DNA from: Alphaproteobacteria bacterium | GTDB taxonomy: Bacteria; Pseudomonadota; Alphaproteobacteria; SHVP01 | Direction: 5' to 3' | Length of the DNA: 41,489 nt | NCBI GenBank assembly: GCA_016869765.1 | Contig: VGES01000033.1 | Span: 1 to 41,489 of the forward strand | In this document: positions 14,696 through 41,489 of the stretch, one piece after another | How the letters are laid out: each line of letters begins with the position of its first letter | Numbering within the stretch: position 1 is the first letter of the stretch | Notes under the pieces: model-generated | Told to the model about the DNA's origin: nothing | Databases searched by the model: none | Seen by the model: the letters and a program-made list of their open reading frames with translations, nothing else | Program-made: the position numbers and the translations under genes

Positions 14696-15166
14696 CTATC
14701 CACGCGCCCGGAGCAGCCGTGACTTTTCACGGTTCCACTCGCGCTCCTTGATTGCCGCTCGCTTGTCCGCAGCCTTCTTACCCTTGGCCAAGGCCAACTC
14801 GACCTTGGCGCGTCCCCGCGCGTTGAAATAGATCGACAATGGAACGAGGGTGATTCCCCCGCGTCGGACATCGCCCATGAACTTGTCGAGTTCCCGCCGA
14901 TGCAACAACAGCTTTCGTGCCCGAAGCGGTTCGTGGTTGAAACGGTTTGCCGACTTGTATTCGGGGATGTGGGCGTTCATCAAATAGAGTTCGCCGTCAC
15001 GCTCAGCAGCGAACGCCTCGGCAATCGACGCTTGGCCGAGGCGCAGGCTCTTGACTTCAGAGCCGGTCAACATGATCCCGGCTTCGATCGTCGATTCGAT
15101 GAAATAATTGTGTCGCGCCTTGCGATTAACGGCGACCTTGCGGCCACCGTCGTCAGCCGGGGCCAT
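14696..15166 (-). CDS. smpB: SsrA-binding protein SmpB
   Basis: The 156-residue partner of tmRNA works in trans-translation, rescuing stalled ribosomes. Motifs are [63 protein letters not shown], and the basic C-terminal tail [30 protein letters not shown] that enters the mRNA channel. (These stretches are discontinuous quotations of the family motifs: [17 protein letters not shown] and AHIPEY are the strongest.) The ATG follows the dapA stop directly (TAGATG), so translation is coupled. No ssrA (tmRNA) gene was found nearby. Confidence 0.94.
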
Positions 15167-16042
15167 CTAGTTCAGGAGGCCCGCGACACGCATCGCGGCG
15201 TCGACCTTCGCTCGCGTCTCGGTTTTCGGAGGAACTAGCGGAAGCCGCACCGATTCCGTGCAGCGACCCAGCTTGCTCACGGCGTACTTCACCGGTGACG
15301 GGCTTGTTTCCACGAACAGGCCGATGTGCAACGCCATCAGGCGGTCGTTGAGAGCCAATGCGTCTCGCGGACGCCCTTCCGCCCAGGCGTTCTGGAACTC
15401 GGCGCACAGACGGGGCGCGACGTTCGCCGTCACCGATATACAACCATGGCCGCCCTGCGCGAGATAGCCGAGGGTCGTCGCATCTTCCCCCGAAAGCTGA
15501 CAAAACTTGTCGCCCAGCAACAACCGGATCGCGGATGCACGTTCGATCTTGGCAGACGCATCCTTGATGCCGACGACATTCGGAAGATCGGCCAAACGCC
15601 CGAGCGTTTCGACTCCAATGTCGATCACCGTGCGACCCGGCACGTTGTACACGATGATCGGTATGTCTACGGCGTCGTTGATCGCCTTGTAGTGTTGGTA
15701 CAGTCCTTCCGGCGTCGGCTTGTTGTAGTACGGCGCCACGACGAGCACCGCATCGACGCCCGCATTCTTCGCGTGGCGCGTGAGTTCGATCGCTTCGTCG
15801 GTCGAATTCGACCCTGTCCCGGCAATCACCGGGACGCGACGGCCTGCGCTCTCGACGCAAAGCTCGATCACCCTTTTATGTTCATCGTGGCTCAAGGTCG
15901 GGGATTCGCCGGTGGTGCCACAGGGCACCAAACCGTGCGTCCCCTCGCTAATCTGCCAGTCGACGAACGACTGGAAGCCCTTTTCGTCGACCCCACCATT
16001 CTTGAATGGCGTAATCAGGGCGACGATCGACCCCTTGAACAT
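15167..16042 (-). CDS. dapA: 4-hydroxy-tetrahydrodipicolinate synthase
   Basis: This 291-residue TIM-barrel lyase condenses pyruvate with aspartate semialdehyde in lysine/diaminopimelate synthesis. Schiff-base lysine K160 is in NVVGIKDAS, the catalytic Thr pair is in CGTTGES (T43, T44), and Tyr132 is in [26 protein letters not shown] and [16 protein letters not shown] are also typical. The ATG at 16042 gives the normal start [13 protein letters not shown] and has GAGGG upstream. It is divergent from the lytic transglycosylase (90 nt between starts), a pairing that groups cell-wall precursor synthesis with wall turnover, and is coupled to smpB downstream. Confidence 0.95.
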
Positions 16043-16132
16043 GGGTGCCCTCACCGTCACAATGACTAGTTTGGGGGACCATAGCCTTCTCAACCAGTAG
16101 GCGGCAAGCTGCTGGTGAGGCATGGTCGTCCA

Positions 16133-18142
16133 ATGAAGCGACATCTGGGGGTTGTAGTGGCTGGTTCGCCACGCGGGCGCGTCATATTACGTTTGGTGGG
16201 CGCGACCGTCCTCGCCGGTTTCGTTGCGGGTGAGGTGCGAGCGGCGGACCTGCCGCCGATGGCCATTTCCGTCCAGGAGCGCAATCAGTTCGGCGAGGCC
16301 TACGCCGCCTACCGGCGGGGTGATGTCGCGGCCGCACGCCAGGCCATCAGATCGGATCGGATCGGCGGAAAGACCATCGACTGGCTGTACCTGAGCACGC
16401 GTGGTGCGCCAGCGTCCTTTGCCGACTACCGAGCGTTCATCGAGCAGAACGGGCATTGGCCTCGCCTCTCGGTCATTCGCCGAAACGCAGAAGTCACCAT
16501 CGAGGCGCTCCCCGATTCGAGCGACCACGTCGTCCTCGAATGGCTGACGCGCTATCCTCCGCTTTCGGCCGTAGGCAAGGCACGCCTCGCCGAGGCAAAA
16601 CTCCGCGGCGGGGCACGCGACGAAGGAATCCGATTGCTCCGTGACGCTTGGATCAACGGCGATCTCGGCGACAAACGCGAACGCGACCTGTGGCGACGCC
16701 ATCGCCAGCTGCTCACCCAGGAAGACCATAGCCTCAGGCTGACACGCCTGCTTTGGGACCGCGACCGAAGCTCCGCTCAACGCATGCTCGCCTATGTCGA
16801 CGAGCCGACACGGTCGTTCGGCAAAGCTTGGTTGGCCCTCCTGGGCGCCGGCGGCAACCCCGACACCCTGCTCGCCAAGTTGCCCGATGAGCTGCGTGCC
16901 CACCCGGGGATCGCGATCGAGCGAGCCCGGTGGCGGCGCCAGAAGGGCGACGATGCGCGGGCCCGGGCCGTCTTGCTCTCGTCGGTGGACGAGGTGCGTC
17001 CAACCGTGTGGTGGCAGGAGCGTCGCATCCAGGTGCGTCGGGCGCTGGCCGCTGGCCACGTCTCCGAGGCCTATACGATCGCGGCCCAGCACGACCTCTC
17101 GGAAGGTGGGGAGTTTGCCGAAGCGCAATGGTTGGCGGGGTGGATCGCGCTGCGTTTCTTGAACGATGCACGTTTGGCGGGGTTGCATTTTGCCGAAATG
17201 CATGCCGCCGTCCAATTCCCGGTCAGCATCGCCCGCGCCGCCTACTGGGCCGGTCGAGCCGCTGAGGCCCGTAACGACGACTCGGGCGCGCGCACCTGGT
17301 ATCAGGAAGCCGCGGAACACGCGCTGACCTACTACGGGCAACTCGCAATCCAAAAGTTGGGGCGCTCCAACGGCTACGCTTTGCCCAAGGATCCACAGCC
17401 GACACCCGAGGATCGGCAGCGATTTGCCAACGACGAATTGGCGCGAGCGGCCTTTCTGCTCGCGAGCGCCGGCGGGCAGAAAAGCATCGACAGCCTCATT
17501 CAGACCCTGGCGGTCGAAGCCGAGCGGCCTGGCCAGGCCACTCTTGCCCTATCGTTGGCCGAACGATTTGGTCGCCGTGATCTGGCGGTCGCCGCGGGAA
17601 AGAAGGCGGCCCAAGAGGGTGTTTACGTCGTAACGCACGCCTATCCGCTGATGGAAATGCCACGCGAGTTCGTCAACGATCTGGCGCTTCTGTTGGCGGT
17701 GGCTCGCCAGGAGAGTCAGTTCAACCCCGAAGCCGTAAGCCCTGCTGGGGCGCGAGGCTTGATGCAGTTGATGCCGGCAACAGCGGAAAGAACCGCGAAA
17801 TCGATCAACCTGCCATACAGCCAAGCGCGGTTGACCGAGGACAGCCGATACAACACCACGCTGGGAAGTGCACACCTTGCGGAACTCCTCCGGACGTTCA
17901 ACGGCTCTTACGTTCTCGCTGTCGCATCGTATAACGCGGGCGAAGGCCGTATCCGGAAGTGGATCAAGGACAACGGGGATCCGCGTTGGGAGGAGGTCGA
18001 TCACATTGACTGGATCGAACAGATCCCGTTCGAAGAGACACGAAACTATGTTCAGCGCGTGATGGAAGGGGTCCAGATCTATCGTGAGCGACTGACCGGG
18101 CGCCCGGCCCCGCTGCGGCTCAACCAAGACCTCAAGCGCTGA
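16133..18142 (+). CDS. slt: Soluble lytic murein transglycosylase (Slt-type)
   Basis: This 669-residue exported enzyme cleaves peptidoglycan between MurNAc and GlcNAc with 1,6-anhydro ring formation. It has an N-terminal signal-like segment (about 16-37, cleavage likely after VRA), a long superhelical alpha-domain with TPR-like repeats (about 60-480), and a C-terminal goose-lysozyme/SLT domain. The catalytic Glu527 is in [20 protein letters not shown], followed by LMQLMPATA and [14 protein letters not shown]. The ATG at 16133 is taken because GTGAGG precedes it; a GTG at 16115 in frame would add six residues. The adjacent hydrolase gene starts 20 nt downstream. Confidence 0.93.
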
Positions 18143-18162: not shown

Positions 18163-19050
18163 ATGGTGTTCTCAGCGGGCGCCGGCAGTGTCACAGCAAC
18201 GCCGCGCGAACATCGCATCAGCGCTCAGGACGGACGACGCCTCTACGTTCGAGACTACGACGCGGGACATGACCATGGCGCAGTTCTCTGCTTGCCCGGT
18301 CTTACCCGCAACAGCAAGGACTTCGACCCGATCGCGCGCCATCTGGCCGAGCGCCATCGCGTCGTTTGCCTCGACCTGCGCGGCCGCGGACAGTCGGAAT
18401 GGGACCCGAGCGGTGAAAGCTATCGACCAGATGTCTACGTCAGCGATGTTTTGTCCGTCCTCGCTGCACTCGGCATTCATCGCGTCGCCGTAATCGGCAC
18501 CTCCCTCGGTGGTATCGTCGCGATGGGAATCGCCGTCGCCCGACCGTCGACTCTGGCGGGCGTGACCCTCAACGACATCGGCCCAGAACTCGCTCGCGAG
18601 GGAATTCAGCGAATCGCGTCCTACGTCGGGCAACCAGCGATCTTCGACACCTGGGACTCGGCCGTCGATGCCTACCGCCAGCGTTACGCTGTGGCCTACC
18701 CCGACCTCCCCGGAGAGGCTTGGCCGCTTCATGCCCGCAACGCCATGACCGAGCGTCAGGGACGGATCGTCTTCGACTACGACCCTGGAATTGCGACCGC
18801 CCTCAGGGGGGCCGGTCCGCCGCAGGACCTCTGGCCACAGTTTCGGGCCATGGCCCACCTACCGGTCATGGTCTTGCGAGGCGGCCTGTCCGACCTCCTG
18901 AGTCAGGAGACGTGCGTGAAAATGGCCGCGGCGATGCCCGCAATGGAGGTCGTGGAGATTCCGAGGGTCGGTCACGTTCCCCTGCTCGATGAGCCAATCG
19001 CCGTCCGGGCGATCGACGCTTTCCTCGCCAAAGTGTTTCCCCATGGCTGA
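18163..19050 (+). CDS. Alpha/beta hydrolase (first of a tandem pair)
   Basis: This 295-residue cytoplasmic hydrolase has a complete triad: nucleophile S114 in GTSLGG, acid D244 in GLSDLLS, and H271 in VGHVPLLDEP. The oxyanion region is CLPGLTRNSKDFD, and DLRGRGQS follows strand 4. It belongs to the broad epoxide-hydrolase/haloperoxidase/lactonase-like group; the substrate cannot be predicted. GGAA lies about six bases before the ATG. It starts 20 nt after slt but probably forms a unit with the four genes downstream, each overlapping the next by 4-11 nt. The next gene is clearly a paralogue (shared TRNSKDF/SRNSKDF, LNDIGPE/LNDVGPE and LDEPxAVxAIDxFL). Confidence 0.85.
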   Translation: MVFSAGAGSVTATPREHRISAQDGRRLYVRDYDAGHDHGAVLCLPGLTRNSKDFDPIARHLAERHRVVCLDLRGRGQSEWDPSGESYRPDVYVSDVLSVLAALGIHRVAVIGTSLGGIVAMGIAVARPSTLAGVTLNDIGPELAREGIQRIASYVGQPAIFDTWDSAVDAYRQRYAVAYPDLPGEAWPLHARNAMTERQGRIVFDYDPGIATALRGAGPPQDLWPQFRAMAHLPVMVLRGGLSDLLSQETCVKMAAAMPAMEVVEIPRVGHVPLLDEPIAVRAIDAFLAKVFPHG

Positions 19051-19897
19051 GTACACCGAGCACCAACACCGTACGAGCGACGGCCTTGCCCTCTACTACC
19101 GCGAATACGGCGCGGACCACGCGAGGACGACGCCGCTGCTTTGCCTTACTGGACTGTCACGCAACAGCAAAGACTTCCACGCCCTTGCTGGTCGCCTCGC
19201 TGCCAAACGCCGCGTTCTCTGCCTCGACTATCGCGGCTGCGGGCGCTCGGACTATGACCCCGACTACATGAACTACGTGATCGAGGTCGATTGCCGGGAT
19301 GTGATTGGCCTGCTCGATGCGTTGGGGATCAGGCGGGCGATCATGATTGGCACCTCGCGCGGAGGCCTTGTCACGATGTCGCTCGCCGTCGTACGACCCG
19401 ACCTGGTTGCTGCTGCCGTGCTGAATGACGTCGGCCCCGAGGTGAAGGATGGGGGGCGAGCAAAGGTCGGCCGCTACTGGGATCTCGATTACGCCTACCC
19501 GGGATGGGCCGATGCTACCGCGACGTATTCCACCTACATGCGCCGTGTCGCCCCCGACCTCACCGACCGACAATGGCAAGAACGGGCGCGCATGACCTTT
19601 GTCGAGGCGCCGGATGGAAGGGTTCACTTCGACTTCGATCCGAACATGGCCAAGGCCTACCGCGAACGGCGAAGTTCGGGACACCGTTGGAACGAGTACG
19701 AGGCCCTCGCCCGCAAGCCGCTTCTCGTGCTGCGTGGGGCAACATCGGGGGTGCTCGCGGTCGAGACCGTCGCCAGGATGAAGCAGATGAAGCCAAACCT
19801 CGTTACGGAGACCGTCCCCAACCGCGGCCACACCCCATTCCTCGATGAGCCCGTGGCCGTTGCGGCAATCGACACGTTTCTCTCTGGTGCCGAATGA
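19043..19897 (+). CDS. Alpha/beta hydrolase (second of the pair, catalytic Asp not in usual place)
   Basis: This 284-residue paralogue of the preceding gene has nucleophile S105 in GTSRGG and H263 in NRGHTPFLDEP. At the position of the acid residue in its sister (LSDLLSQET) it has TSGVLAVET, so Asp244 is replaced by Gly236. The acid may be supplied from elsewhere (for example after strand 6) or the protein may act differently. The frame is open back to 18989, but the ATG at 19043 matches the start of the fold and overlaps the upstream stop by 8 nt. The next gene begins inside its stop (ATGA). A tandem duplication followed by divergence is the simplest history. Confidence 0.85.
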   Translation: MAEYTEHQHRTSDGLALYYREYGADHARTTPLLCLTGLSRNSKDFHALAGRLAAKRRVLCLDYRGCGRSDYDPDYMNYVIEVDCRDVIGLLDALGIRRAIMIGTSRGGLVTMSLAVVRPDLVAAAVLNDVGPEVKDGGRAKVGRYWDLDYAYPGWADATATYSTYMRRVAPDLTDRQWQERARMTFVEAPDGRVHFDFDPNMAKAYRERRSSGHRWNEYEALARKPLLVLRGATSGVLAVETVARMKQMKPNLVTETVPNRGHTPFLDEPVAVAAIDTFLSGAE

Positions 19898-20904
19898 ACG
19901 ACGAGGCGATACATCCCACGTTCGATCACGTCGCCGACGCTGCGGAGCGTCTGAGGGACGTCGCCGTACGAACACCGCTGCTCGAGGCGCCACTCCTGAA
20001 CGACCTCGTCGGTGGTCGCGTGCTGGTCAAGGCTGAAGTGCTACAGCGTACCGGATCGTTCAAGTTTCGCGGCGCCTACAATCGGGTCAGCAGGACGACC
20101 CAAGAAGAACGAACGCGCGGCGTGCTCTGTTTTTCGTCGGGAAATCATGCGCAGGGGGTCGCCGCAGCGGCTCAGCTGTTCAAGACCAGAGCGTACATCG
20201 TCATGCCGGCAACGGCGCCAGCGCTCAAGGTCGCCCGATGCAAGGCCATGGGGGCCGAGGTCATTCTGCACGATGGTGATCGCCGCAGCATGGAGCAGCG
20301 CACCGAGGCTTTGGCAAAGGAAAAGGGCCTCGTTCTTGTCCGTCCGTTCGACGATCGCTTTGTCATCGCCGGCCAAGGGACCGTGGGTCTGGAGATCGCT
20401 GCACAATTGGCCGAGCGGCAGACGTTCGCCGACCTCGTGTTGGTACCTTGCAGTGGTGGGGGGCTCGTGGCGGGCATCGCACTCGCACTCGAACGTCAGT
20501 CCCCGGCGACGGCCGTTTACTCGGCGGAACCAGCGGGCTTCGACGATATGGCTCGTTCGCTCGCGGCGGGCACGAGGGTCGCAAATGCTCCGGGGCGGTC
20601 CTCGATCTGTGATGCCCTGCAAGTTCCCGAACCTGGGGCGATCACGTTCGCCGTGAACAAACCGCGACTGCGGGGCGGGCTCGTCGTCAACGATGACGAG
20701 GTCCGACGGGCCATGGCCATCGCATTCGAGCACCTGAAAATCGTCGTTGAGCCGGGAGGAGCAGTGGGATTAGCAGCCATTCTGGCTGGGCGCGTGGACG
20801 TGCGAGGCCGCACCGTGGTCGTCGTGGCCTCGGGGGGAAACGTGGATCCGGCGGTGTTTCGCAGCGCGATTGGTGAGCGAGATCATCGGAGTTCCGTCGC
20901 ATGA
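19894..20904 (+). CDS. PLP-dependent threonine/serine dehydratase-family enzyme
   Basis: This 336-residue fold-type II PLP enzyme has the PLP lysine K57 in GSFKFRGA, an Asn-containing loop SSGNHAQG (81-88), the phosphate-binding SGGGL (187-191) and a C-terminal SGGNVD. There is no C-terminal ACT domain, so it is the short catabolic type (threonine ammonia-lyase, serine racemase or hydroxyaspartate dehydratase). Which of these it is cannot be settled by motif. Because it sits between two alpha/beta hydrolases and two uncharacterised genes, all overlapping, its substrate is likely a hydroxy-amino acid released or processed by this operon rather than bulk threonine; that is inference. Confidence 0.88.
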   Translation: MNDEAIHPTFDHVADAAERLRDVAVRTPLLEAPLLNDLVGGRVLVKAEVLQRTGSFKFRGAYNRVSRTTQEERTRGVLCFSSGNHAQGVAAAAQLFKTRAYIVMPATAPALKVARCKAMGAEVILHDGDRRSMEQRTEALAKEKGLVLVRPFDDRFVIAGQGTVGLEIAAQLAERQTFADLVLVPCSGGGLVAGIALALERQSPATAVYSAEPAGFDDMARSLAAGTRVANAPGRSSICDALQVPEPGAITFAVNKPRLRGGLVVNDDEVRRAMAIAFEHLKIVVEPGGAVGLAAILAGRVDVRGRTVVVVASGGNVDPAVFRSAIGERDHRSSVA

Positions 20905-21620
20905 CCCACCGAACATTGATCGGTCGAATCCAGTATTTGAGCGAAAAACCGGATCGCTTCGGCCAGGAGCGTGGGCGCGAGGTCTTTGCCATGACACACC
21001 ATGGCGACGGATCACGCACACTCACCGCGCACTGTGAAATCGACGACGCCCCCAGCGTCATCAGAGATGTCTCTCTGACCGTGGATTCGCAATGGCATCC
21101 GCAAGATTGCTCCGTGAGGCTGATGGTCGGCGGCGACTTCACGGGATCCGGTTGGTTTCGTTTCTCGACCCACGAGGCCGAGTGCGAGACGTTCACGCGC
21201 GCCGAGGGCCGGCTACGGCAACGAATCGGCCTCGCCCAGCCTCTAAGATGTTTTGGCAATCACGCCATATCCAGCGATGGCTGGCTCATGAACGTCTATG
21301 ACCTCGCGCAAGGAATCGGCACGCAGCGGATCGAGCGCGCCTTGATCTCTTCACCTGATCATCGTGGAGCTACTGGCCCAACGCTCTTTCAGCTTTCGTT
21401 TGGCGTGGGTTACTTGGGACGAGAGAAGATCACGGTGAAGGCTGGAACGTTCGACGCGCACCACTTCCAGGTCCTGGCACCGGACCTCCCGGAGGAACAC
21501 CCGCCCTATGACGTCTGGACCACGGCCGATGGCGACTACGTCATGCTCAAGGGACGGGTTACCGGCTATATGAAGACGTATTACGAACTGATTTCCCTGG
21601 AGCGCGTTCATGGCGGATGA
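20901..21620 (+). CDS. Conserved protein of unknown function (beta-rich)
   Basis: This 239-residue protein was not recognised with confidence. It has no signal peptide or membrane segment. Predicted secondary structure is strand-rich, and the C-terminal third (VKAGTFDAHHFQV, then YDVWTTADGDYVMLKGRV) resembles the pattern of DUF3108/lipocalin-like barrels, where a conserved aGtfd..h and a W....g.... strand recur. This similarity is weak. It starts by ATGA overlap with the PLP enzyme and overlaps the next gene by 11 nt, so it surely belongs to the operon. A binding or small hydrolase role is possible, but no catalytic motif stands out. Confidence 0.75.
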   Translation: MTHRTLIGRIQYLSEKPDRFGQERGREVFAMTHHGDGSRTLTAHCEIDDAPSVIRDVSLTVDSQWHPQDCSVRLMVGGDFTGSGWFRFSTHEAECETFTRAEGRLRQRIGLAQPLRCFGNHAISSDGWLMNVYDLAQGIGTQRIERALISSPDHRGATGPTLFQLSFGVGYLGREKITVKAGTFDAHHFQVLAPDLPEEHPPYDVWTTADGDYVMLKGRVTGYMKTYYELISLERVHGG

Positions 21621-22299
21621 GAAGGGAATGCTCGTGTCGTTTACCGGCGTCGACCCAGCGTTCGAAGTCGAGCACAACGAGTGGTTTAATCGCGAACATA
21701 TCGACGAGCGCGCCCTGGACACTCCCGGATTCTTCCGGGCGCGGCGCTATGCAGCCATCGAGGCGCCGATCAAGTATTTTGCCACCTACGAGACGGAATC
21801 CTGGCGCGTGCTCGCGTCGCCCCAGTACCTGGATCGGGTCGGAAACCAAACCGAATGGAGCCGACGCGTCATCAGAGAGCTGAGGACGCTCTATCGTATG
21901 ACCACGCGCATCACGATCGACGCCATGCATGGAATTGGCGGAGTCGCGACGGCTGTGCGCTTTTTTCCCTCGCCCAACGCAGGCCAGCAACACGCGCTAC
22001 GTGAAAGCTTGCGGACAACCTTTCCAACGCTCGTCAAACGGCCCGGCATGATCGGAGCCTGTCTCACGGAGAACATGCCCGAAGCCGCCAATGCCACAGG
22101 CGACAAGGCCCGGGCGGTGGGCGGCAACCCTATGCGCGCCGATCGCGTCGAGTGGTTGGCGGTGCTCGAGGGCGCCGAGGCGGAAGCCACAACGACGGCG
22201 GCAAATGACGTCTTGTCGCTCGGCGCGCTGCAACGCTTCGGCGTCGCGCAAGCCCCCGTGATCGGGACCTACCGTTTCGTGTACGGCATCTATCGCTAG
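21610..22299 (+). CDS. Two-repeat dimeric alpha/beta-barrel protein (DUF4286/EthD-like)
   Basis: This 229-residue cytoplasmic protein appears to contain two ferredoxin-like halves. The first (about 1-105) has MLVSFTGVDPAFEVEHNEWFNREHIDERAL-type features, quoted here in pieces: VEHNEWFNREHIDER and TPGFFRARRY. These are characteristic of dimeric alpha/beta-barrel (EthD/DUF4286-like) proteins. The second half (about 110-229) begins GGVATAVRFFP and ends TYRFVYGIYR. Conserved H36 in the first half is a possible proton donor. Such folds handle polyketide-like or ring-cleavage substrates, but the role here is unknown. GGAG lies 8 nt before the first ATG, which is why it is used rather than the Met seven codons in. 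It is the last gene of the overlapped operon and converges on the transporter 8 nt away. Confidence 0.72.
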   Translation: MADEKGMLVSFTGVDPAFEVEHNEWFNREHIDERALDTPGFFRARRYAAIEAPIKYFATYETESWRVLASPQYLDRVGNQTEWSRRVIRELRTLYRMTTRITIDAMHGIGGVATAVRFFPSPNAGQQHALRESLRTTFPTLVKRPGMIGACLTENMPEAANATGDKARAVGGNPMRADRVEWLAVLEGAEAEATTTAANDVLSLGALQRFGVAQAPVIGTYRFVYGIYR

Positions 22300-22307
22300 G
22301 CGTTGCC

Positions 22308-23540
22308 TCACACGATCGGCATCCACCCACCGGCCCACAACCAAACGATCGCCGCCATCATCGAGATCAAAGTCATCGGCACGCCGGCCCGCGCAAAGGC
22401 CACGAACGAGAGATGAACACCCGCCACCTTGGCACGCTCGGCCACGATCAGGTTCGCGATGCTCCCCACAATCAGGAAGTTGCCGGCAAGCGTCGACAAC
22501 AGCGCGAGACCATAGAGGTCACCCGTGGCCGGCGCTGGCCAAAGCGCCAACAACAAGACGTCGGCCGGCACATTGCCGATCGTATTGCTGAGGATCAGAG
22601 CGAGCGGCGCCATGATCACCAGTCGGTCAGGGAGGAATCCGGCGACCACCCCTTCGCGCACGAGCAGTTGGACCTCAGTCAATTGGGCTAACGCGCCCGT
22701 CACGATGAAGAGCCCGACGAACAAAATGAGCAGGTTCCAGTCAACGCGCGACAACAACGTCCGGCTCGGGGTCGTGCGACTAAGAAACAAAAACGCCGCG
22801 ACCGCGAGAGCGGCCAACTCTCGAGGGATCGGCGTCGCAAACAGGCCGAACATTACGGCGACCGCGGCGCCCGCTTTGATCAGCTGACGAGGAACGATTG
22901 GCGGCGGCGCCGGCGTCGAAACAGAGATTCGTGGCGAGGCGGTCAGTTCTTGCTTCCAAACCAGCCAAATCACGACAAACACGATGATCATAGCGAAGAT
23001 CGCGGGTGCGGCGTTGACCGCCAGAAACGACCAGAAATCTAGGGCGCCGACCTGGCCGATCAAAATGTTCTGAGGATTTCCAATGATAGTGGCGGCCGAC
23101 CCGGCGTTGCTGCCACCGGCAAGCCCTACGAGGTAGGGCCGTGGATCACAACCGCGCGCAACAAGCCCCGTGCACAGCAGGGGCGTCATGGCGAAGACGA
23201 CGATGTCGTTCGCCAGGACAGCCGAAAGAAAGCAGGAAATCGCGACGGTGGCACCGAGCAGCATTGCAGGGCGGGTTCGAGCCCTCGTAATGGCGTGGGC
23301 GCACCGGTCGTAGAACCCCGATCCTTCGAACTGGGCGGAGATCACCATCAAGGCGAACAACAGGACAACCGTCGATGCATCGATCATGCCACCCGCATCC
23401 GCCAAGGACAGAGCCCCAGAGAGCAGTAATACGGCAATCGCCATGACGATCCCGGTTCGATCGATGCGCAAGCCAGGAAACCGGCCCGCCGCCATACCCG
23501 CGTACGTGGCAACGAACACGACAACGACGAGCGTGGTCAT
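22308..23540 (-). CDS. SLC13/ArsB-type anion or sodium transporter
   Basis: This 410-residue integral membrane protein has about 11 hydrophobic helices. Two inverted half-repeats are visible. The first carries LANDIVVFAMTPLL and the re-entrant signature IIGNPQNILIG (about 151-161). The second carries LSNTIGNVPADVLLLAL and FLIVGSIANLIVAE. These are the ion-transporter superfamily patterns shared by SLC13 (dicarboxylate/sulfate), ArsB/ArsP and NhaD. The Asn-Pro/Asn-based hairpins are right for anion/Na+ coupling, and the substrate is open. It is transcribed towards the hydrolase/PLP operon and divergently from the ATP-grasp-like gene; it could import the substrate of either. Confidence 0.85.
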   Translation of the reverse strand: MTTLVVVVFVATYAGMAAGRFPGLRIDRTGIVMAIAVLLLSGALSLADAGGMIDASTVVLLFALMVISAQFEGSGFYDRCAHAITRARTRPAMLLGATVAISCFLSAVLANDIVVFAMTPLLCTGLVARGCDPRPYLVGLAGGSNAGSAATIIGNPQNILIGQVGALDFWSFLAVNAAPAIFAMIIVFVVIWLVWKQELTASPRISVSTPAPPPIVPRQLIKAGAAVAVMFGLFATPIPRELAALAVAAFLFLSRTTPSRTLLSRVDWNLLILFVGLFIVTGALAQLTEVQLLVREGVVAGFLPDRLVIMAPLALILSNTIGNVPADVLLLALWPAPATGDLYGLALLSTLAGNFLIVGSIANLIVAERAKVAGVHLSFVAFARAGVPMTLISMMAAIVWLWAGGWMPIV

Positions 23541-23618
23541 CGGTGGAGCACCACCGAGGGCTTGGTGACAGTCCGACCGGGCGCGCCTAGCATTCCAGCC
23601 CAGAGGTTTGTTTCAATC

Positions 23619-24596
23619 GTGGCCATCGTCGAACGCGATCCCTGGCGCCTGCAGTACTTCACCGGCATCCCATGTCCGGACGACGTGTTCGTGCCCACTG
23701 AGGATCCGGACGCCTATGACATCTACCCGATGCATCGCTGGGTCTACAACAAACTGAGAATCTGTGAGACTCAAGGGCTGCTGTGTGCGCCTCATGGCGT
23801 CACGCCTCCCGGGTACCCGGTGTTTTCCAAGCCGATCTACAACATGCGCGGAATGGGCGCCGGCTCCATGCTCGTGCAAACGGCAGAAGAATACCGCCGC
23901 GCGTACGCACCCGGTCACATGTGGATGCAAGTGCTCGACGGAGACCACGTCTCGACCGACGCCGCCGTCATCGACGGCGGAGTCGTTTGGTGGCGGCACG
24001 TGGTCGGGAAGTCGCTTGGCAACGGTATGTTCGACTACTGGACCGTGCTCGCCGAGCCGCACGACGTGGTCGAACGCTATTGCGGCGATTGGGTCGCGAA
24101 ACAGCTCCCTGGCTACACCGGAATGCTCAACTTCGAAACGATCGGCGGCCGAATCATCGAGGTGCACCTGCGTTTCAGCGACCAGTGGCCCGACCTATAT
24201 GGCGGGAGGCCGTGGGTCGAAAGCGTCGTCACGCTGTACAGTGAGGGACGTTGGCCTTTCAAAGATCAGGTGCGTCGAACCGGTCATTCGGTCATTCTGT
24301 TTGGCGCCCATGGGGTCCGCTATCGCGCACCGGATGACGAAATTCTCTCCGAAGCCCGAGCCACAGCCGGAGTCTCCAGCGTGCAGATAACGTTCCACCC
24401 CGACAAGGCTCCTGAGGATCATTCGATGCCTGTTGGGGGATTCCGCCTCGCCATCGTCAACTGCTGGGACCTCGAAACAGGATTTCGCGTACGCGAACAG
24501 CTGGCGCTCGCCCTTTGGTCAACACAGAGACTCGCTCGGCGCGTTCGGCGGAAAAAGATCGCGCCTCCCGTTCACTGGCGTTCGCCCGCGCAGTGA
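23619..24596 (+). CDS. Divergent ATP-grasp-like protein
   Basis: This protein of about 325 residues is usually left as hypothetical. I read an ATP-grasp layout: NKLRICETQG (pre-ATP segment, like the DK of ligases), VFSKPIYNMRGMGAGS (lysine plus glycine-rich loop), GHMWMQVLDGDHVSTDAAVIDG (like EY..G.E.S.D), and MLNFETIGGRIIEVHLRFSD (like the metal-binding E...E.N.R, with His in place of the final Asn). The order and spacing fit, but the last motif is degenerate, so catalytic activity is uncertain. An open frame begins at TTG 23562. I prefer GTG 23619 because AGAGG lies upstream and the protein-like part begins there. The start is divergent from the SLC13/ArsB gene, and the CocE hydrolase begins 29 nt downstream. 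Confidence 0.65.
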   Translation: MAIVERDPWRLQYFTGIPCPDDVFVPTEDPDAYDIYPMHRWVYNKLRICETQGLLCAPHGVTPPGYPVFSKPIYNMRGMGAGSMLVQTAEEYRRAYAPGHMWMQVLDGDHVSTDAAVIDGGVVWWRHVVGKSLGNGMFDYWTVLAEPHDVVERYCGDWVAKQLPGYTGMLNFETIGGRIIEVHLRFSDQWPDLYGGRPWVESVVTLYSEGRWPFKDQVRRTGHSVILFGAHGVRYRAPDDEILSEARATAGVSSVQITFHPDKAPEDHSMPVGGFRLAIVNCWDLETGFRVREQLALALWSTQRLARRVRRKKIAPPVHWRSPAQ

Positions 24597-31127: not shown

Positions 31128-32138
31128 TCAGACTCCCAATCGCTTGCGAGACGATGTGACGATTCGCTCGAGCATCTGGGCGTAGGTCCACCCAGCAAAC
31201 CCCGCCATCATGGCGAGCTTTCCATCCCATGCCCAGGCTGGGTTTGGATTGACCTCGAGAAGCTTAACCTCGCCCTGCCGATCGGTGCGCCAGTCGAACC
31301 GCGCATAGTCGCGGCAGCCCAGGCGTTCGAACAGGACTCGACTCCACGATTCGAGCCGCTCGCGCGTCACGACATCGAGCGATGCCGCGCGATAGCCAAT
31401 GTCGGTCCAATAGGGAGAGCCCGGTATTGTCTTCGACTCATAGCCGAGAATTGGGGCATACCCCTCGGGGAGCCTGGAGTAGTCGACCTGCATCGCTGGC
31501 AGAGCGTGGAGATCGGCACCCGGATTGCCGACCAAGCCTATTCCGTACTCCTGGCCCGACAGATACTCCTGGACGAGAACGGCACGATCGGGCAGCAGCT
31601 GCGCTAGCTGCCGCAAGTAGCCATCCGCCGCGTCTCGATCGTGAGCAACCGACTCCTTGGTGATTCCGAGACTCCCGTCAGCTTGATTGGGCTTGATCAG
31701 GACCGGAAACGCGTTGATCTGCCCGATCGCCGCCATGGAACTCGGAAAGTAGCGCTCCACGGGAACGGCAATGCCCAACTCTTTGGCAATCACCCGCACA
31801 AGCGCTTTGTCGAAGCAAACGGCCATGCACGCAGGTGGTGCCCCGGTATAGGGCAGCCCAAAGACATCGAAGAGGGCCGCCACATGGAGCTCCAGAAACG
31901 GATCGTTGGAAAAACCGGTGTCGCAGAAGTTGACGATGAGGTCCGTTCGGATGCCTCGCAATGCTTCGACCAGCCGCCGATGATCGTCGAGAACCGTCAA
32001 CGCATATCCATCCACGGACGCGAGGGCATCGAGCATACGGCGACGCGCATCGATATCTTCGGGATTGAAGCGCTGGCCCGGCTTTGTACGATCGGGATGC
32101 CGCGGGTCGCCAAGCACGATGGCCAGGGAGAAACTCAA
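31128..32138 (-). CDS. ATP-grasp ligase, D-Ala-D-Ala ligase-like
   Basis: This 336-residue ATP-grasp enzyme has a Rossmann-like N-terminal domain with VNFCDTGFSNDPFLELH and LPYTGAPPACMAVCFDKAL (DK 110-111). The ATP-grasp core has PVLIKPNQADGSLGI (KPN 149-151 with glycine-rich loop), VQEYLSGQEYGIG (190-201) and the metal site RFDWRTDRQ, LLEVNPNP (D282, E295, N297). It is not Ddl itself: the Ddl serine/tyrosine signatures are missing and it lies far from mur genes. It probably joins a carboxylate to an amine. The TTG start at 32138 overlaps the upstream SUMF1-like gene (TTGA with TGA), so the two are coupled. Confidence 0.82.
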   Translation of the reverse strand: MSFSLAIVLGDPRHPDRTKPGQRFNPEDIDARRRMLDALASVDGYALTVLDDHRRLVEALRGIRTDLIVNFCDTGFSNDPFLELHVAALFDVFGLPYTGAPPACMAVCFDKALVRVIAKELGIAVPVERYFPSSMAAIGQINAFPVLIKPNQADGSLGITKESVAHDRDAADGYLRQLAQLLPDRAVLVQEYLSGQEYGIGLVGNPGADLHALPAMQVDYSRLPEGYAPILGYESKTIPGSPYWTDIGYRAASLDVVTRERLESWSRVLFERLGCRDYARFDWRTDRQGEVKLLEVNPNPAWAWDGKLAMMAGFAGWTYAQMLERIVTSSRKRLGV

Positions 32139-32998
32139 GGCATGTCTCGCGCGCAGCGAAAACCGATGTTGTGATGACCAGCTTGCGGGCTGCGCGAAAC
32201 TCCTTTTCCGCGCCAGGTCGCCGAAAGGCGAGCGGCTGAGCTGTCATGGGCTCCGCCCCGCGTGACTCGCTCTTCGCCCGAGTCGCGATCCTCCCGCCCG
32301 TCGTCGAAACGATAGGGGTAGGACCGGTATAGCGACGAGGTCCACTCATGGACATTGCCGGCCAGATCCTGGACTCCGTCCGGGGTAGCGCCGGCGGGGT
32401 GAGAACCGATCGGGGCCGTCTGGTTCCAACCACTGGCGAAACGCGCGCGACCTGGGTGCGGCGGCTCGCGGCCCCAGGGAAAATCGCGCCCTTCCAGATC
32501 ACGGGCGGCGAATTCCCACTCGGCCTCGGTGGGCAATCGAGCCCTCCGCCATGCGCAGTAGTTCCGTGCGCCAAACCACGAGGCCTCGACCACGGGATGA
32601 TCCGCGAAGCCGGGATCGGGCGTCAGCCGCCCCTCGCGACGGTGGATGCGGGCGTCGTTGTCATCGTCATCGTAGTGACGACGGCCGTCGGCAGAGCGCA
32701 AACCGGCCTGGTTGAGAAACTCCGAGAACTCTGCGTTGGTGACGGGAAAACGATCGATCAGGAATGTGGCAATCGAAACGTCGTGGCGCGGCTGTTCGTC
32801 GGGCTCAGCCCCACCGCCCATACGCAAAACGCCACCTCGAATCGTGACCACGTCCTCCTGGTGGGGCTGTGCCGATCCGGGCACGGTCACGAAGACGGCG
32901 AAAAGCCAGCAAAGCGCCAGCGTCCCAAATCCGAGGGCTCGTCTTGGCCAAAGCCCGGTGTCGAAGTATGACGGTACACGGTGTAACATCCGCCTCAT
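32135..32998 (-). CDS. Exported SUMF1/FGE-fold protein without the catalytic cysteines
   Basis: This 287-residue protein has a signal-like hydrophobic stretch (21-40, cleavage after about GSA) and a formylglycine-generating-enzyme-fold domain: LPTEAEWEFAAR (155-166), DLAGNVHEWT (211-220) and NIGFRCARD (277-285). An unusual acidic insertion DDDDND (110-115) follows. In true FGE a CxxxxC pair follows GGSY; here the segment RGGAHDSSAARLSATWRG has Ser and Ala in those places, so it should not make formylglycine. It may be a binding, C-type-lectin-like or pterin/ergothioneine-type scaffold protein. GGAG lies 9 nt before the ATG. It is divergent from the TAXI binding protein with only 24 nt between starts. 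Confidence 0.8.
   Translation of the reverse strand: MRRMLHRVPSYFDTGLWPRRALGFGTLALCWLFAVFVTVPGSAQPHQEDVVTIRGGVLRMGGGAEPDEQPRHDVSIATFLIDRFPVTNAEFSEFLNQAGLRSADGRRHYDDDDNDARIHRREGRLTPDPGFADHPVVEASWFGARNYCAWRRARLPTEAEWEFAARDLEGRDFPWGREPPHPGRARFASGWNQTAPIGSHPAGATPDGVQDLAGNVHEWTSSLYRSYPYRFDDGREDRDSGEERVTRGGAHDSSAARLSATWRGKGVSRSPQAGHHNIGFRCARDMP
32944..32972 (+). promoter_or_regulatory. Possible promoter for the TAXI operon
   Basis: TTGGCC (32944-32949) and TATGAC (32967-32972) are separated by 17 bases, inside the 5' coding end of the SUMF1-like gene about 50 nt before the TAXI start. The match is only moderate, but the 24-nt gap between starts cannot hold two promoters, so control sequences must lie within coding DNA. 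Confidence 0.25.
32975..32985. promoter_or_regulatory. Palindrome in the divergent control region
   Basis: TACAC-G-GTGTA is a perfect 5-bp inverted repeat around one base, directly after the proposed -10 of the TAXI operon and overlapping the start of the SUMF1-like coding region. It could be an operator half-site for a dimeric regulator; no regulator gene is adjacent. Confidence 0.25.
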
Positions 32999-38133: not shown

Positions 38134-39405
38134 TCAGGAGGCTCGCTGGCCGAACAGCTCCAAAGGAGCAAAGCCTCGTCTCGTGAACTCACTTTGCTCC
38201 AAACCCCACCATCCCTTCAGCACGCCGGCGTAGACCTGCCGGAAATCGACGTGGTGTTTGAGGTTGCCGAAGTCGAGATCCTCTAGCGACGGCTGACGAC
38301 CATGAAAGCCCCCCGCGACGGCGCCGCCGGTGACGAACATCGGTCCGGCGGTCCCATGGTCGGTGCCATTGCTCTCATTCTCCGCAGGCCGGCGGCCAAA
38401 CTCCGAGAAGACGACAACCAACGTGTTCTTCCAATACCCCATGTCGATCATCGCAGACCGGAAGCCCGCCAATGCCGCCCCGAGCTGGGTCATCAACGGG
38501 TCATGGCGCGGGCGCAACGAAATGTGATGGTCGAAACCCGGCAGAGTCACTTTGATCACCGGAACATCGACTCCGTCCGCAATAACGTCCGCGACGTTGG
38601 CCAGGCGACGCCCAAGGACGGTCCCCGGTAGGACCCGCCCGTAACGACCGGACCCGGTGATTTTTGCCCGGAGACGATCGGCCGTTGCCGCAGCGTCACG
38701 CTGAGTTCGAATGAGATGGGTTACGGCGGAACTAGCGGGACGATCAGCGACATCGCGAATCTGGCTCGCCCCAAGTACGTAACTGCGTGGGTCGACCATT
38801 GCAGCGATCCGTGTCGTCGGCCCCATGATGGTGCCTGCACTACCGTCGCCGATGACGATTGCATCGGCATCTCCCGAACGATGCGACAGGATCGGATGTG
38901 TACCGATCGCACGCGAGAGCCATCCCTCCTGTAGGAACTCCTCGCTATCGGACGCTGTCTCCCATATTTCGATCGACCGAAAATGCGAGAGGTTTGGCCG
39001 CGGGTAACCAACGCCCAAGACGATGGCCAACTCCCCCTTTTCCCACGCTGGTAACAGTGGGACTAGGCCAGGGTGCAGGCCCAATTGTTCGTTCAGGGGC
39101 GTGATCTCGTCAGCTGCTAGGGCAGAACGAGGCCGAAGCTTTGCATAGAGCGGATCCGCGTACGGAACGAGGGTGTTGAGCCCGTCGTTCCCCCCGGCCA
39201 ACTCAACGAGGACGAGTGTCCGACCTGGCGGTAGTCTAGGCGCAGGTCCGACCGCCAATTTGTTGGCGCCCTCTATCGCGTCGGGTGTCGCCGGAGCCGC
39301 CGCCCGAGGCGGCGCCACGGATCGCGGCGGCTCAACCCCTGCGCACGCCGCGAGGGTTAATGCAGTTCCGCTCGCGAGAAAAGTTCGCCGGCTAAGCCCG
39401 ATCAT
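38134..39405 (-). CDS. DUF1501 protein (Tat lipoprotein)
   Basis: This 423-residue exported protein starts with a twin-arginine motif SRRTFLASG (5-13) and a lipobox LAAC with C21, so it is probably a Tat-translocated lipoprotein. The DUF1501 domain (sulfatase/alkaline-phosphatase-like fold) shows LVELAGGNDGLNTLVPYADPLY at about 65, quoted as GGNDGLNTLVPY, then LGLHPGL, and a C-terminal NTLVVVFSEFGRRPAENESNGTDHGTAGP in pieces: FSEFGRRP and GTDHGTAG. It always pairs with DUF1800, whose gene is 7 nt upstream. Function unknown; the pair is often linked to outer-surface or polysaccharide-related processes. Confidence 0.9.
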   Translation of the reverse strand: MIGLSRRTFLASGTALTLAACAGVEPPRSVAPPRAAAPATPDAIEGANKLAVGPAPRLPPGRTLVLVELAGGNDGLNTLVPYADPLYAKLRPRSALAADEITPLNEQLGLHPGLVPLLPAWEKGELAIVLGVGYPRPNLSHFRSIEIWETASDSEEFLQEGWLSRAIGTHPILSHRSGDADAIVIGDGSAGTIMGPTTRIAAMVDPRSYVLGASQIRDVADRPASSAVTHLIRTQRDAAATADRLRAKITGSGRYGRVLPGTVLGRRLANVADVIADGVDVPVIKVTLPGFDHHISLRPRHDPLMTQLGAALAGFRSAMIDMGYWKNTLVVVFSEFGRRPAENESNGTDHGTAGPMFVTGGAVAGGFHGRQPSLEDLDFGNLKHHVDFRQVYAGVLKGWWGLEQSEFTRRGFAPLELFGQRAS

Positions 39406-39412
39406 GATTTCC

Positions 39413-41335
39413 TCACCTTAGCTGGTAGCTCAAGTCATCGAGGAAGGACCGAACGGCCTCGGCGCCGCTCGATCCCGACTCGAACACCATGGGAGCGGCA
39501 GGGCCGAGGCTGCGCCAAACCCCCGCCGGCTGACCCAATCCTGACGGGAGCGCCGCCAACCAGTCGTCGAAACTACGCGTCGTACGACGGCCTGCCAGAA
39601 CCCGCTCCCAAGCGGCCCTCGCCTTCATTGCCATACCGTCATCCATCGCCATACCCATGCTCATCTCGCTGTCGCTAGCCGTCTTCACGGGCTTGGCAAG
39701 GTCGAACGTCAGCGTTCCACTGCAAAACATGTTGCCCGGCCGCGGGCGGTTCGGACACCGATCGACTTGCTCGGCATCGGCGGCCGCGAGCAGCCGATCG
39801 CCAAGCTCGATCCAATCAACGTAGAGATTGCGGTCACATACCAGAACGCCGTCCGATCGCAGTGCAGAGTCGTTGACGAAATCGATCGAAATCTTCTGCA
39901 CGGCGGTTCGAGGCGACTTCAGCGGAAGCTCGATCATTCGGCGTTCGAGTTCCGCCGGATCCCCCGGGCGCCCGAGCGCTTCGCTATCGTGGCCGAATGT
40001 CAATGTCGTATCGGCAATCGTCGCCCCATCCGCCTTGACGACGATGCGCGGACCTCCTCGACAGTTCTCCGCCGCCAACCGAACCCTCAATCGTTGATCC
40101 TCGGGCAAAGCCATACCGGCAGACATGTCGATCGACACCGTCTGCCAGCCAACCAGACGATCGATGGTCTGACGTCTCACCAACAAAGTATGTGGCGTGA
40201 TCCACAGCGTACCGCCCGGCCAACCCTTCACGTTCGGTGGATCGAACACGTCTTGCCCGAGGCGCTTCGTCATCTGCGGGAGTGAATCGAGATCGGCAAT
40301 CGGCAGATCGAATGTACGGATCGTGCCGACGACAACGTCGATCGGCGACTTGATCAACGTCGTTCGATTGGCGTCCGCCCAGAACGCGTCCGAAACCAGC
40401 ATGGCCCGGAGGAGCGGCTTCAACTGCAGGCCGCTGTCACGAAAGACCTTCGCTAACCGCGCGACTTCCCGTTCTTCAGGCATATCGGAAACGAACTCGC
40501 GCCAGAGTTTGGTTACTACCAGTCGTGCGGCCTCGTCACGTTCGAGAATGATGTCGACGACCGATTGACCGTCGAATCGGCCAGTCTTGCCCAATACTGT
40601 TTTCTGACCGGCGTCGTGCTGCCCAGTGCTGACCAAGAACGTGTAGTTCTTCGCGCGATCGAGCGTCCAACCGCTAAAGGCGCGAGCAACCTCTCGGATG
40701 TCACCCTCCGTGTAGTTCCCTTCTCCCAGCGTGAAAAGCTCCAACAGCTCTCGCGCGAAGTTTTCGTTTGGCCGGCCACGCCGATTGTTGACGTTGTCCA
40801 GGTAGCGCAACATCATCGGATCACGAATCACGCGACCGACCAGGGACCGATAACTGCCGAGCGCATGCTCTCGAAACATGGCGTTCTGGTCGTAGAGCAT
40901 GTGCGACCAATTGATCCCCTCGAAACCCGACGTGAAATGGTTGTGCCAGAACAGCACCATCCGCTCCGTCAGCGGTGTCGGGGTCACCACCATCTCCGTG
41001 AGCCACCACGCCTTCAGCTGACGCACCTCGCTACGACGCACCTGTGTAAAAGCATTGCGCTGCTCAGCCGTCCAGTTCGCCTGATCCCAATAGCCCGGCT
41101 TCTTGTCGTGCACCCAGGCAGGTGGGGGCGTTCCGGCAACAGCGCCGACCTCTCCCAGAAGCAAATCCACCGCTTTTGTTCGGTCGAGCGGCAGGAGGCG
41201 CTTGACCTCAACCGGGTTTGCACCAAACCCCGTCCGCGATACCAAGTGACGTGCCTCTTCATAGGTTAGCGCCGCAGCCTCGCCCAAGAGAAGGCTTGTC
41301 ACGGCGAGCGCTATCGCAAGGCCCAATCTCAACAT
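39413..41335 (-). CDS. DUF1800 protein with embedded CBM60/CBM36-like module
   Basis: This 640-residue exported protein has a signal peptide (MLRLGLAIALAVTSLLLG, cleavage near residue 22). DUF1800 occupies about 25-400: EARHLVSRTGFG, MVLFWHNHFTSGFEGIN, ENFARELLELFTLGEGNYTE and FDPPNVKGWPGG. About 413-512 reads like a calcium-dependent xylan-binding module (IVVKADGATIADTTL, then ISIDFVNDS and DRNLYVDWIELG). A Met-rich stretch MSMGMAMDDGMAM (558-570) and a conserved C-terminal DUF1800-type tail follow. The ATG at 41335 is chosen because GGAG lies 6 nt upstream, although the frame is open to 41434. Gene order DUF1800-DUF1501 is conserved in bacteria. Confidence 0.88.
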   Translation of the reverse strand: MLRLGLAIALAVTSLLLGEAAALTYEEARHLVSRTGFGANPVEVKRLLPLDRTKAVDLLLGEVGAVAGTPPPAWVHDKKPGYWDQANWTAEQRNAFTQVRRSEVRQLKAWWLTEMVVTPTPLTERMVLFWHNHFTSGFEGINWSHMLYDQNAMFREHALGSYRSLVGRVIRDPMMLRYLDNVNNRRGRPNENFARELLELFTLGEGNYTEGDIREVARAFSGWTLDRAKNYTFLVSTGQHDAGQKTVLGKTGRFDGQSVVDIILERDEAARLVVTKLWREFVSDMPEEREVARLAKVFRDSGLQLKPLLRAMLVSDAFWADANRTTLIKSPIDVVVGTIRTFDLPIADLDSLPQMTKRLGQDVFDPPNVKGWPGGTLWITPHTLLVRRQTIDRLVGWQTVSIDMSAGMALPEDQRLRVRLAAENCRGGPRIVVKADGATIADTTLTFGHDSEALGRPGDPAELERRMIELPLKSPRTAVQKISIDFVNDSALRSDGVLVCDRNLYVDWIELGDRLLAAADAEQVDRCPNRPRPGNMFCSGTLTFDLAKPVKTASDSEMSMGMAMDDGMAMKARAAWERVLAGRRTTRSFDDWLAALPSGLGQPAGVWRSLGPAAPMVFESGSSGAEAVRSFLDDLSYQLR

Positions 41336-41423
41336 GCGAACTCCGTGAACTGACACCTCCGGACATACTACACCTGAGCTGGGGTGGATGCGTTCTCGGC
41401 GCCTTGAAGAGCCCTGTAGCGCC

Positions 41424-41489
41424 ATGTTAACCACGACCGCGATGGAAGCTTTGCTCGCGCACGAACCTTGGATTCGCGGAATTTGCTCA
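41424..41489 (+). CDS. Possible start of a sterol desaturase-family gene (3' cut by window end)
   Basis: The last 66 bases, divergent from the DUF1800 gene, encode 22 residues from ATG 41424 (or 16 from ATG 41442): MEALLAHEPWIRGICS at the end. This recalls the N-terminus of fatty-acid-hydroxylase/sterol-desaturase-like membrane proteins (a conserved LL..EP.IR pattern before the first helix). The evidence is short and no clear ribosome-binding site precedes either ATG, so it is a weak call; extension of the sequence will decide. Confidence 0.35.
   Translation, partial: MLTTTAMEALLAHEPWIRGICS

Follow-up and report, generated by a model that had tools for sequence, protein, structure and literature searches.

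The window analysed here, the whole 41,489-nucleotide (nt) stretch of contig VGES01000033.1 from an Alphaproteobacteria bacterium, carries at positions 18163-22299 a run of five plus-strand genes, which we call P1 to P5. We favour an explanation in which this run is a lineage-specific remodelling of an enzyme cluster that is conserved in Alphaproteobacteria at the dapA/smpB locus. The evolutionary part of this explanation, which we read from sequence comparisons, is very probable: a haloacid dehalogenase-like (HAD) gene would have been lost, the hydrolase gene duplicated, and two further genes, P4 and P5, added downstream. The outline of chemistry that we propose for the gene products is tentative, and the explanation as a whole, chemistry included, seems to us reasonably probable.

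A run of five plus-strand genes

We confirmed the five genes from the list of open reading frames (ORFs) together with the sequence itself:

18163-19050, plus strand: P1, alpha/beta hydrolase, 295 aa (Pfam Abhydrolase_6, 7.8e-21; phmmer match to PDB 3bwx, 1.7e-69)
19043-19897, plus strand: P2, sister alpha/beta hydrolase, 284 aa from the ATG at 19043, with a longer ORF opening at 18989; nucleophile motif GTSRGG, acid Asp changed to Gly, beta6 Asp retained
19894-20904, plus strand: P3, fold-type II pyridoxal phosphate (PLP) enzyme of the Ser/Thr dehydratase group, 336 aa (Pfam PALP, 5e-73)
20901-21620, plus strand: P4, DUF3108-like protein with a predicted EipB/LolA-like beta fold, 239 aa, no signal peptide by inspection
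21610-22299, plus strand: P5, predicted tandem dimeric alpha/beta-barrel, remotely DUF4286/ABM-like, 229 aa (predicted local distance difference test score, pLDDT, of the model 79.1)

Each gene starts with ATG and has a length divisible by three, and GC content is similar across the five (0.59-0.65). As the initial annotation of this DNA had described, consecutive genes overlap, by 8 nt (P1/P2), 4 nt (P2/P3), 4 nt (P3/P4) and 11 nt (P4/P5). The protein classes that it had named also agree with our Pfam scan, which returned Abhydrolase for P1 and P2, PALP for P3 and CitMHS for the downstream neighbour; a PHROGs search gave no match. On the plus strand, from the lytic-transglycosylase-like gene slt to P5, the sole terminator-like site lies at 17671, within slt, and the scan for promoters and terminators found no more sites than in shuffled sequences. 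We infer that P1 to P5 are co-transcribed. The gene slt ends at 18142, only 20 nt ahead of P1, and probably opens the run, a member that had been overlooked before.

The parent locus in other families

Members of the P1 family were found in 187 of 385 genomes of the class (E<=1e-30). A P3 homologue was adjacent in 20 of the best 30 P1 loci of this search, and in 15 of the 25 that lie outside the window's own family. The wider stretches shared a frame of UDG-like gene, smpB and dapA, followed by slt, HAD, hydrolase and P3 (UDG, smpB, dapA and slt being named by eye), in which smpB-dapA diverges from a series made up of slt, a type II haloacid-dehalogenase-like HAD, an alpha/beta hydrolase and a fold-type II PLP dehydratase.

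We fetched 31 P1-type loci of other families, a sample that is not a random draw: 24 of those 25 best loci (G234 was left out), comprising all 15 with P3 adjacent and nine of the ten without, and seven hand-picked places (G018, G049, G131, G151, G175, G204 and G307). The gene slt lay directly upstream in 27 of the 31, and P3 was present in 19, with homologues 47-62% identical. By tblastn, the HAD gene stood directly upstream of the hydrolase in 18 of the 19 loci with P3, compared with none of the 12 without it. The HAD passes the cut-off for haloacid dehalogenase type II (215 vs 125 bits). Among the matches listed class-wide (121 P1 places above about 208 bits, crossed with 134 HAD places), 47 of 385 genomes, from 23 families, had HAD directly upstream of the P1-type gene and in the same orientation; in 45 of these genomes the match ends lay 64-136 nt apart. 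No other arrangement of the two was found within 3 kb. The trio of HAD, hydrolase and PLP dehydratase is present in L250, L251, L253-L264, L273 and L276-L278, all from other alphaproteobacterial families, mostly behind slt and opposite dapA/smpB. Literature searches found no published description of the locus or of the trio. A HAD-hydrolase gene fusion, which the long open frames of L255 and L264 had suggested, was rejected as the HAD lies in a different frame. In L280, L282 and L283, two TRAP-transporter-subunit-like genes (named by eye) lie between slt and the hydrolase, and both P3 and HAD are absent.

The run in the window resembles this parent locus in its slt/dapA/smpB surroundings and in having a hydrolase followed by a dehydratase. 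It differs in that HAD is absent, the hydrolase is duplicated, and P4 and P5, whose genes are not part of the parent locus in other families, have been added. Within the window's family a HAD above the cut-off was found in only two of 10 genomes (G001 and G005), in G005 at this very locus, and the window's own genome (G000) has none. The operon of the window is thus very probably a derived form.

Conservation within the family

The order P1-P2-P3-P4-P5 was found unchanged in three genomes of the same family (G002, G003 and G006), with dapA and slt ahead of the block in each; a fourth (G008) showed P4-P5 only, at a contig end. Proteins of the window are 46-71% identical to their counterparts in these four genomes. 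This recurrence in the same order at slt/dapA shows that chance does not account for the five-gene arrangement. Overlap between consecutive genes is not conserved: most junctions in the relatives have short gaps. A close P4 orthologue (at least 59% identity) was present in five of 60 related genomes, namely these four and G023, which belongs to another family.

The survey of this locus for P1, P3 and P5 covered the family's genomes other than G001, G007 and G009, and it revealed two further states. G004 has P1-P3-P5 in order beside dapA/smpB, with neither P2 nor P4 at that place and with P5 at most 12 nt behind P3. In G005 this place is taken by HAD-hydrolase-P3, with the contig ending inside P3, and a P5 relative lies elsewhere.

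The two hydrolases

By alignment, P1 has a complete catalytic triad (Ser114/Asp244/His271). Ser114, His271 and the beta6 Asp138 were invariant in all 46 family members, whereas the acid position 244 was Asp in 41 of the 42 non-P2 members (the remaining one, a paralogue from G000, has Ile); all four distinct P2 orthologues have Gly there. P2 thus retains Ser and His and fails the Ser-His-Asp triad with the acid after beta7. With this Gly and a preserved beta6 Asp, P2 would either hydrolyse by means of the beta6 Asp or act as a partner whose chemistry has changed. In the tree, P2 groups with own-family paralogues (99/99), and P1 lies near other own-family hydrolases of this locus, although this deeper fork is weak (84/90).

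The nearest solved relative of both proteins, matched near full-length, is PDB 3bwx, which presumably comes from Novosphingobium aromaticivorans and to our knowledge has no assigned function. Its acid position is Asp in the printed alignment, compared with Gly in P2, and function is not transferable from it. The third-best solved match of P1 is the enamide hydrolase 3kxp (1.2e-17), and P1 also matches the aminoacrylate hydrolase RutD at 41.7 bits, below the curated cut-off of 238.5.

RutD has been proposed to accelerate enamine hydrolysis. These two matches, the widely kept pairing of hydrolase and dehydratase, and the score of the HAD against the type II dehalogenase model would all suit a detoxification pair, in which reactive enamines (2-aminoacrylate, for example) are freed by P3 or another PLP enzyme and hydrolysed faster thanks to the hydrolase, and the HAD of the parent locus handles 2-halo or related acids. 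As the RutD score falls far under its cut-off and the hydrolase fold family spans many functions, we consider this alternative unlikely.

The dehydratase

P3 scored 246.4 bits against Pfam PALP (gathering threshold 35) and aligns with the PLP motifs of its class (Lys57, SSGNHAQG, SGGGL and SGGN); in the PDB it matches threonine deaminase 1ve5 (2.7e-60). The best NCBIfam match was threo-3-hydroxyaspartate ammonia-lyase PRK07048, at 296.4 bits against a cut-off of 452; threonine ammonia-lyase TIGR01127 scored 289.7 against 378.75, and neither cut-off was reached. P3 shares the fold, the PLP lysine motif and the glycine loops with the enzymes of these two models but differs from them in its sub-cut-off scores and its own conserved locus.

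P4 belongs to an expanded family

P4 scored 18.4 bits against DUF3108 (PF11306), below the gathering threshold of 26; that domain was matched at E<=0.1 by 34 of 73 members of the P4 family, the best of them at 0.00072. One homologue, on a plasmid, carries the label 'DUF3108 domain-containing'. The P4 sequence found no match in the PDB. Its structure model (pLDDT 92.3; predicted template modelling score, pTM, 0.89) aligned best with the DUF1849 structure 6ntr, which we take to be EipB (Z 17.3 over 207 residues), and with PA1994/DUF1089 2h1t (Z 15.4 over 165 residues), followed by further proteins including VioE, LolA and RseB (Z about 8-9). The list held no enzyme match above EipB and PA1994, an absence that excludes nothing. 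The predicted fold of P4 is thus like that of EipB and PA1994, at 6-9% identity. EipB is periplasmic, whereas inspection of P4 revealed no signal peptide, and its gene lies among those for cytosolic enzymes. The initial annotation had cast P4 as a binding or accessory component, a putative role that the predicted EipB/LolA-like fold permits.

The family alignment holds 73 sequences, the window's and those from 72 of 80 loci found by scanning genome contigs; it omits L132, which has a stop codon, and L080, L088, L094, L106, L114, L120 and L140. The stretch SPDHRGAT (residues 151-158) is invariant across all 73, and its conservation suggests that it is likely a ligand or active site. P4 itself had 20 matches in its own genome at E<=0.01. 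With the profile of this alignment (E<=1e-6) we found 19 matches in that genome, 18 in G002, 10 in G003 and 11 in G006, compared with 1-5 in each of 18 other genomes or records, bar one with 15. Class-wide, the family was detected in only 11 of 385 genomes (E<=1e-8).

The paralogues in the window's genome lie on contigs C1, C8, C13, C21, C22, C26, C30, C32, C45, C68, C86, C97 and C132, often near genes for an SBP_bac_5 solute-binding protein, a methyltransferase, an isochorismatase-like protein or a hydrolase. In a raw count, a gene of the SBP_bac_5 cluster lies within three ORFs of 8 of the 17 mapped places. One contig of G002 (C17, L057) carries four tandem copies. On the sphingomonad plasmids pJE1 (L027) and pTomTYG65b (L029), the P4 homologue adjoins an alpha/beta hydrolase, both inside a catabolic-looking cluster common to the two plasmids, with LeuCD-like proteins, a CoA transferase, an HMG-CoA lyase-like protein and a TonB receptor. 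In gammaproteobacteria the genes beside P4 homologues are different ones (MaoC-like, HapK-like and, by eye, MFS-like), so that P4 function is not fixed by neighbourhood there. At four of these loci (L103, L105, L116 and L121) the P4 homologue comes after two genes, one HapK-like (REDY) and one MaoC-like, and an exported-looking protein of about 320 residues, without a Pfam match in L105, follows with an overlap of a few nt.

P5 is a predicted tandem barrel

P5 had no Pfam match, and comparing its sequence with the PDB gave chance-level matches only. Its model shows two beta-alpha-beta repeats. As this model was built from four sequences and was the only confident one of five (the other four reached pLDDT 47-54), it is a weaker prediction than that of P4. 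The best structural alignments were with sulfur oxygenase reductases (Z 16.8) and the anthrone-oxidase-like 5f9p (Z 14.8). The model and these alignments bear out the dimeric alpha/beta-barrel fold that had been suggested for P5, and a duplicated form of this fold would be shared with sulfur oxygenase reductase, anthrone-oxidase-like and ABM proteins. Identity to those barrels is 7-13%, and the fold does not give the function.

P5 itself does not match DUF4286, and 12 of 16 relatives do so weakly at E<=1 (best 6.7e-06); the relatives also match ABM weakly. Relatives of P5 were found in 46 of 385 class genomes (E<=1e-8), where they adjoin SDR, hydantoinase-like and enolase-superfamily genes (by eye).

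Neighbouring genes

The run is flanked by the following genes:

14696-15166: smpB, next to dapA
15167-16144, minus strand: dapA, divergent upstream neighbour, named by sequence recognition; its true start is likely the internal ATG that reads MFKGSIV...
16115-18142, plus strand: slt, lytic-transglycosylase-like, named by sequence recognition
22308-23540, minus strand: CitMHS/ArsB-like transporter (Pfam CitMHS, 1.2e-41), convergent with the run

The dapA neighbour is common to the operon relatives and to most P1-type loci of other families. The transporter had been described as convergent and as starting 8 nt after the last stop; orientation and distance are correct, and, as the gene is on the minus strand, what lies 8 nt beyond P5 is its stop codon, not its start. 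A convergent homologue is found in G002 about 1.3 kb past P5, and the transporter is probably a separate unit.

Elsewhere in the window, 23562-24596 encodes a 344-residue protein without a Pfam or NCBIfam match, for which we found one homologue (58%, G020) among 40 related genomes and none in the own family. At 31128-32998 a D-Ala-D-Ala-ligase-like and a sulfatase-modifying-factor-like gene overlap by 4 nt, and at 38134-41434 a DUF1501 gene lies beside a DUF1800 gene, whose protein has a CBM60-like segment.

Proposed function and alternatives

A catabolic role, in which hydrolysis is followed by PLP-dependent elimination, is likely. We infer the following steps: P1 would hydrolyse an ester, amide or enamine bond in a small amino-acid-like molecule, and P3 would produce a 2-oxo acid by eliminating ammonia along with water or a different leaving group at the beta position. 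P5, as a cofactor-poor barrel, might process or protect an intermediate, P4 might hold a hydrophobic or reactive ligand, and P2 would act as a specialised partner hydrolase.

The idea of a functional set, already put forward in the initial annotation, is supported by these results. The specific version given there, in which the pathway would break down a hydroxy-amino acid held in ester or lactone linkage, fits the enzyme classes and the conserved gene order, but nothing favours such a substrate over amide, enamine or other acyl substrates, and the parent locus of other families lacks P4 and P5; we regard it as improbable. That annotation was also framed too narrowly, having missed the parent locus, the loss of HAD, the acid change in P2 and the family of about 20 copies to which P4 belongs.

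Several observations weigh against a single remodelled pathway. Proximity of genes is no proof of a pathway, and slt and dapA may be unrelated bystanders of the enzyme genes. Among the matches listed, P3 passed no NCBIfam function model. Outside the own family, P5 lies mostly away from the other genes of the run, and among the 80 P4 loci, homologues of P1, P2, P3 or P5 were found only at L061, L062 and L063, which are from same-family genomes, and at L106, where a P2-like hydrolase lies about 2.5 kb off on the opposite strand (L030 and L061 are one contig, as are L032 and L062, and L033 and L063, and each contig was counted once). Elsewhere, P4 and P5 thus often lie apart from P1-P3. Finally, in G003 and G006 a DinB-like gene (named by Pfam) and an opposing KefB-like gene (named by eye) separate P3 from P4, and because of this opposing gene a single transcript is not general. 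Measured against the refuting conditions named in the initial annotation, scattered homologues and a break between the genes, these findings give a mixed outcome.

The split between P3 and P4 is what would be expected of two adjacent units that share no pathway, an inherited slt-P1-P2-P3 and a P4-P5 module that landed downstream by chance. Such a module is also suggested by a second site, on C8 of G000 and C5 of G002, where relatives of P4 and P5, without P1-P3, share a strand at a distance of about 3 kb or less, a pairing that also fits the remodelling explanation. However, all five genes are contiguous in the window and in G002, and in G004 P5 follows P3 within 12 nt without P4, so we consider two independent units somewhat unlikely and retain lineage-specific remodelling as the preferred explanation.

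A broader proposal, to which we assign a low probability, is that the type II HAD, the hydrolase and the PLP dehydratase form an unnamed class-wide pathway for a common, unrecognised metabolite or damage product, in which the HAD step of the window's lineage would have been replaced by the altered sister hydrolase with P4 and P5, two proteins from families that have no assigned function. P4 would then stand for a cytosolic EipB-like family, grown to about 20 copies, that serves as a general partner in catabolism.

The family of P4, for which DUF3108-like is the best annotation available, is strongly expanded in this clade. The order of HAD, hydrolase and PLP dehydratase is conserved in many families, which makes the trio a concrete target for the assignment of function, and the lineage of the window offers a comparison in which one step appears to have been lost, one duplicated with a changed acid, and two parts are new.

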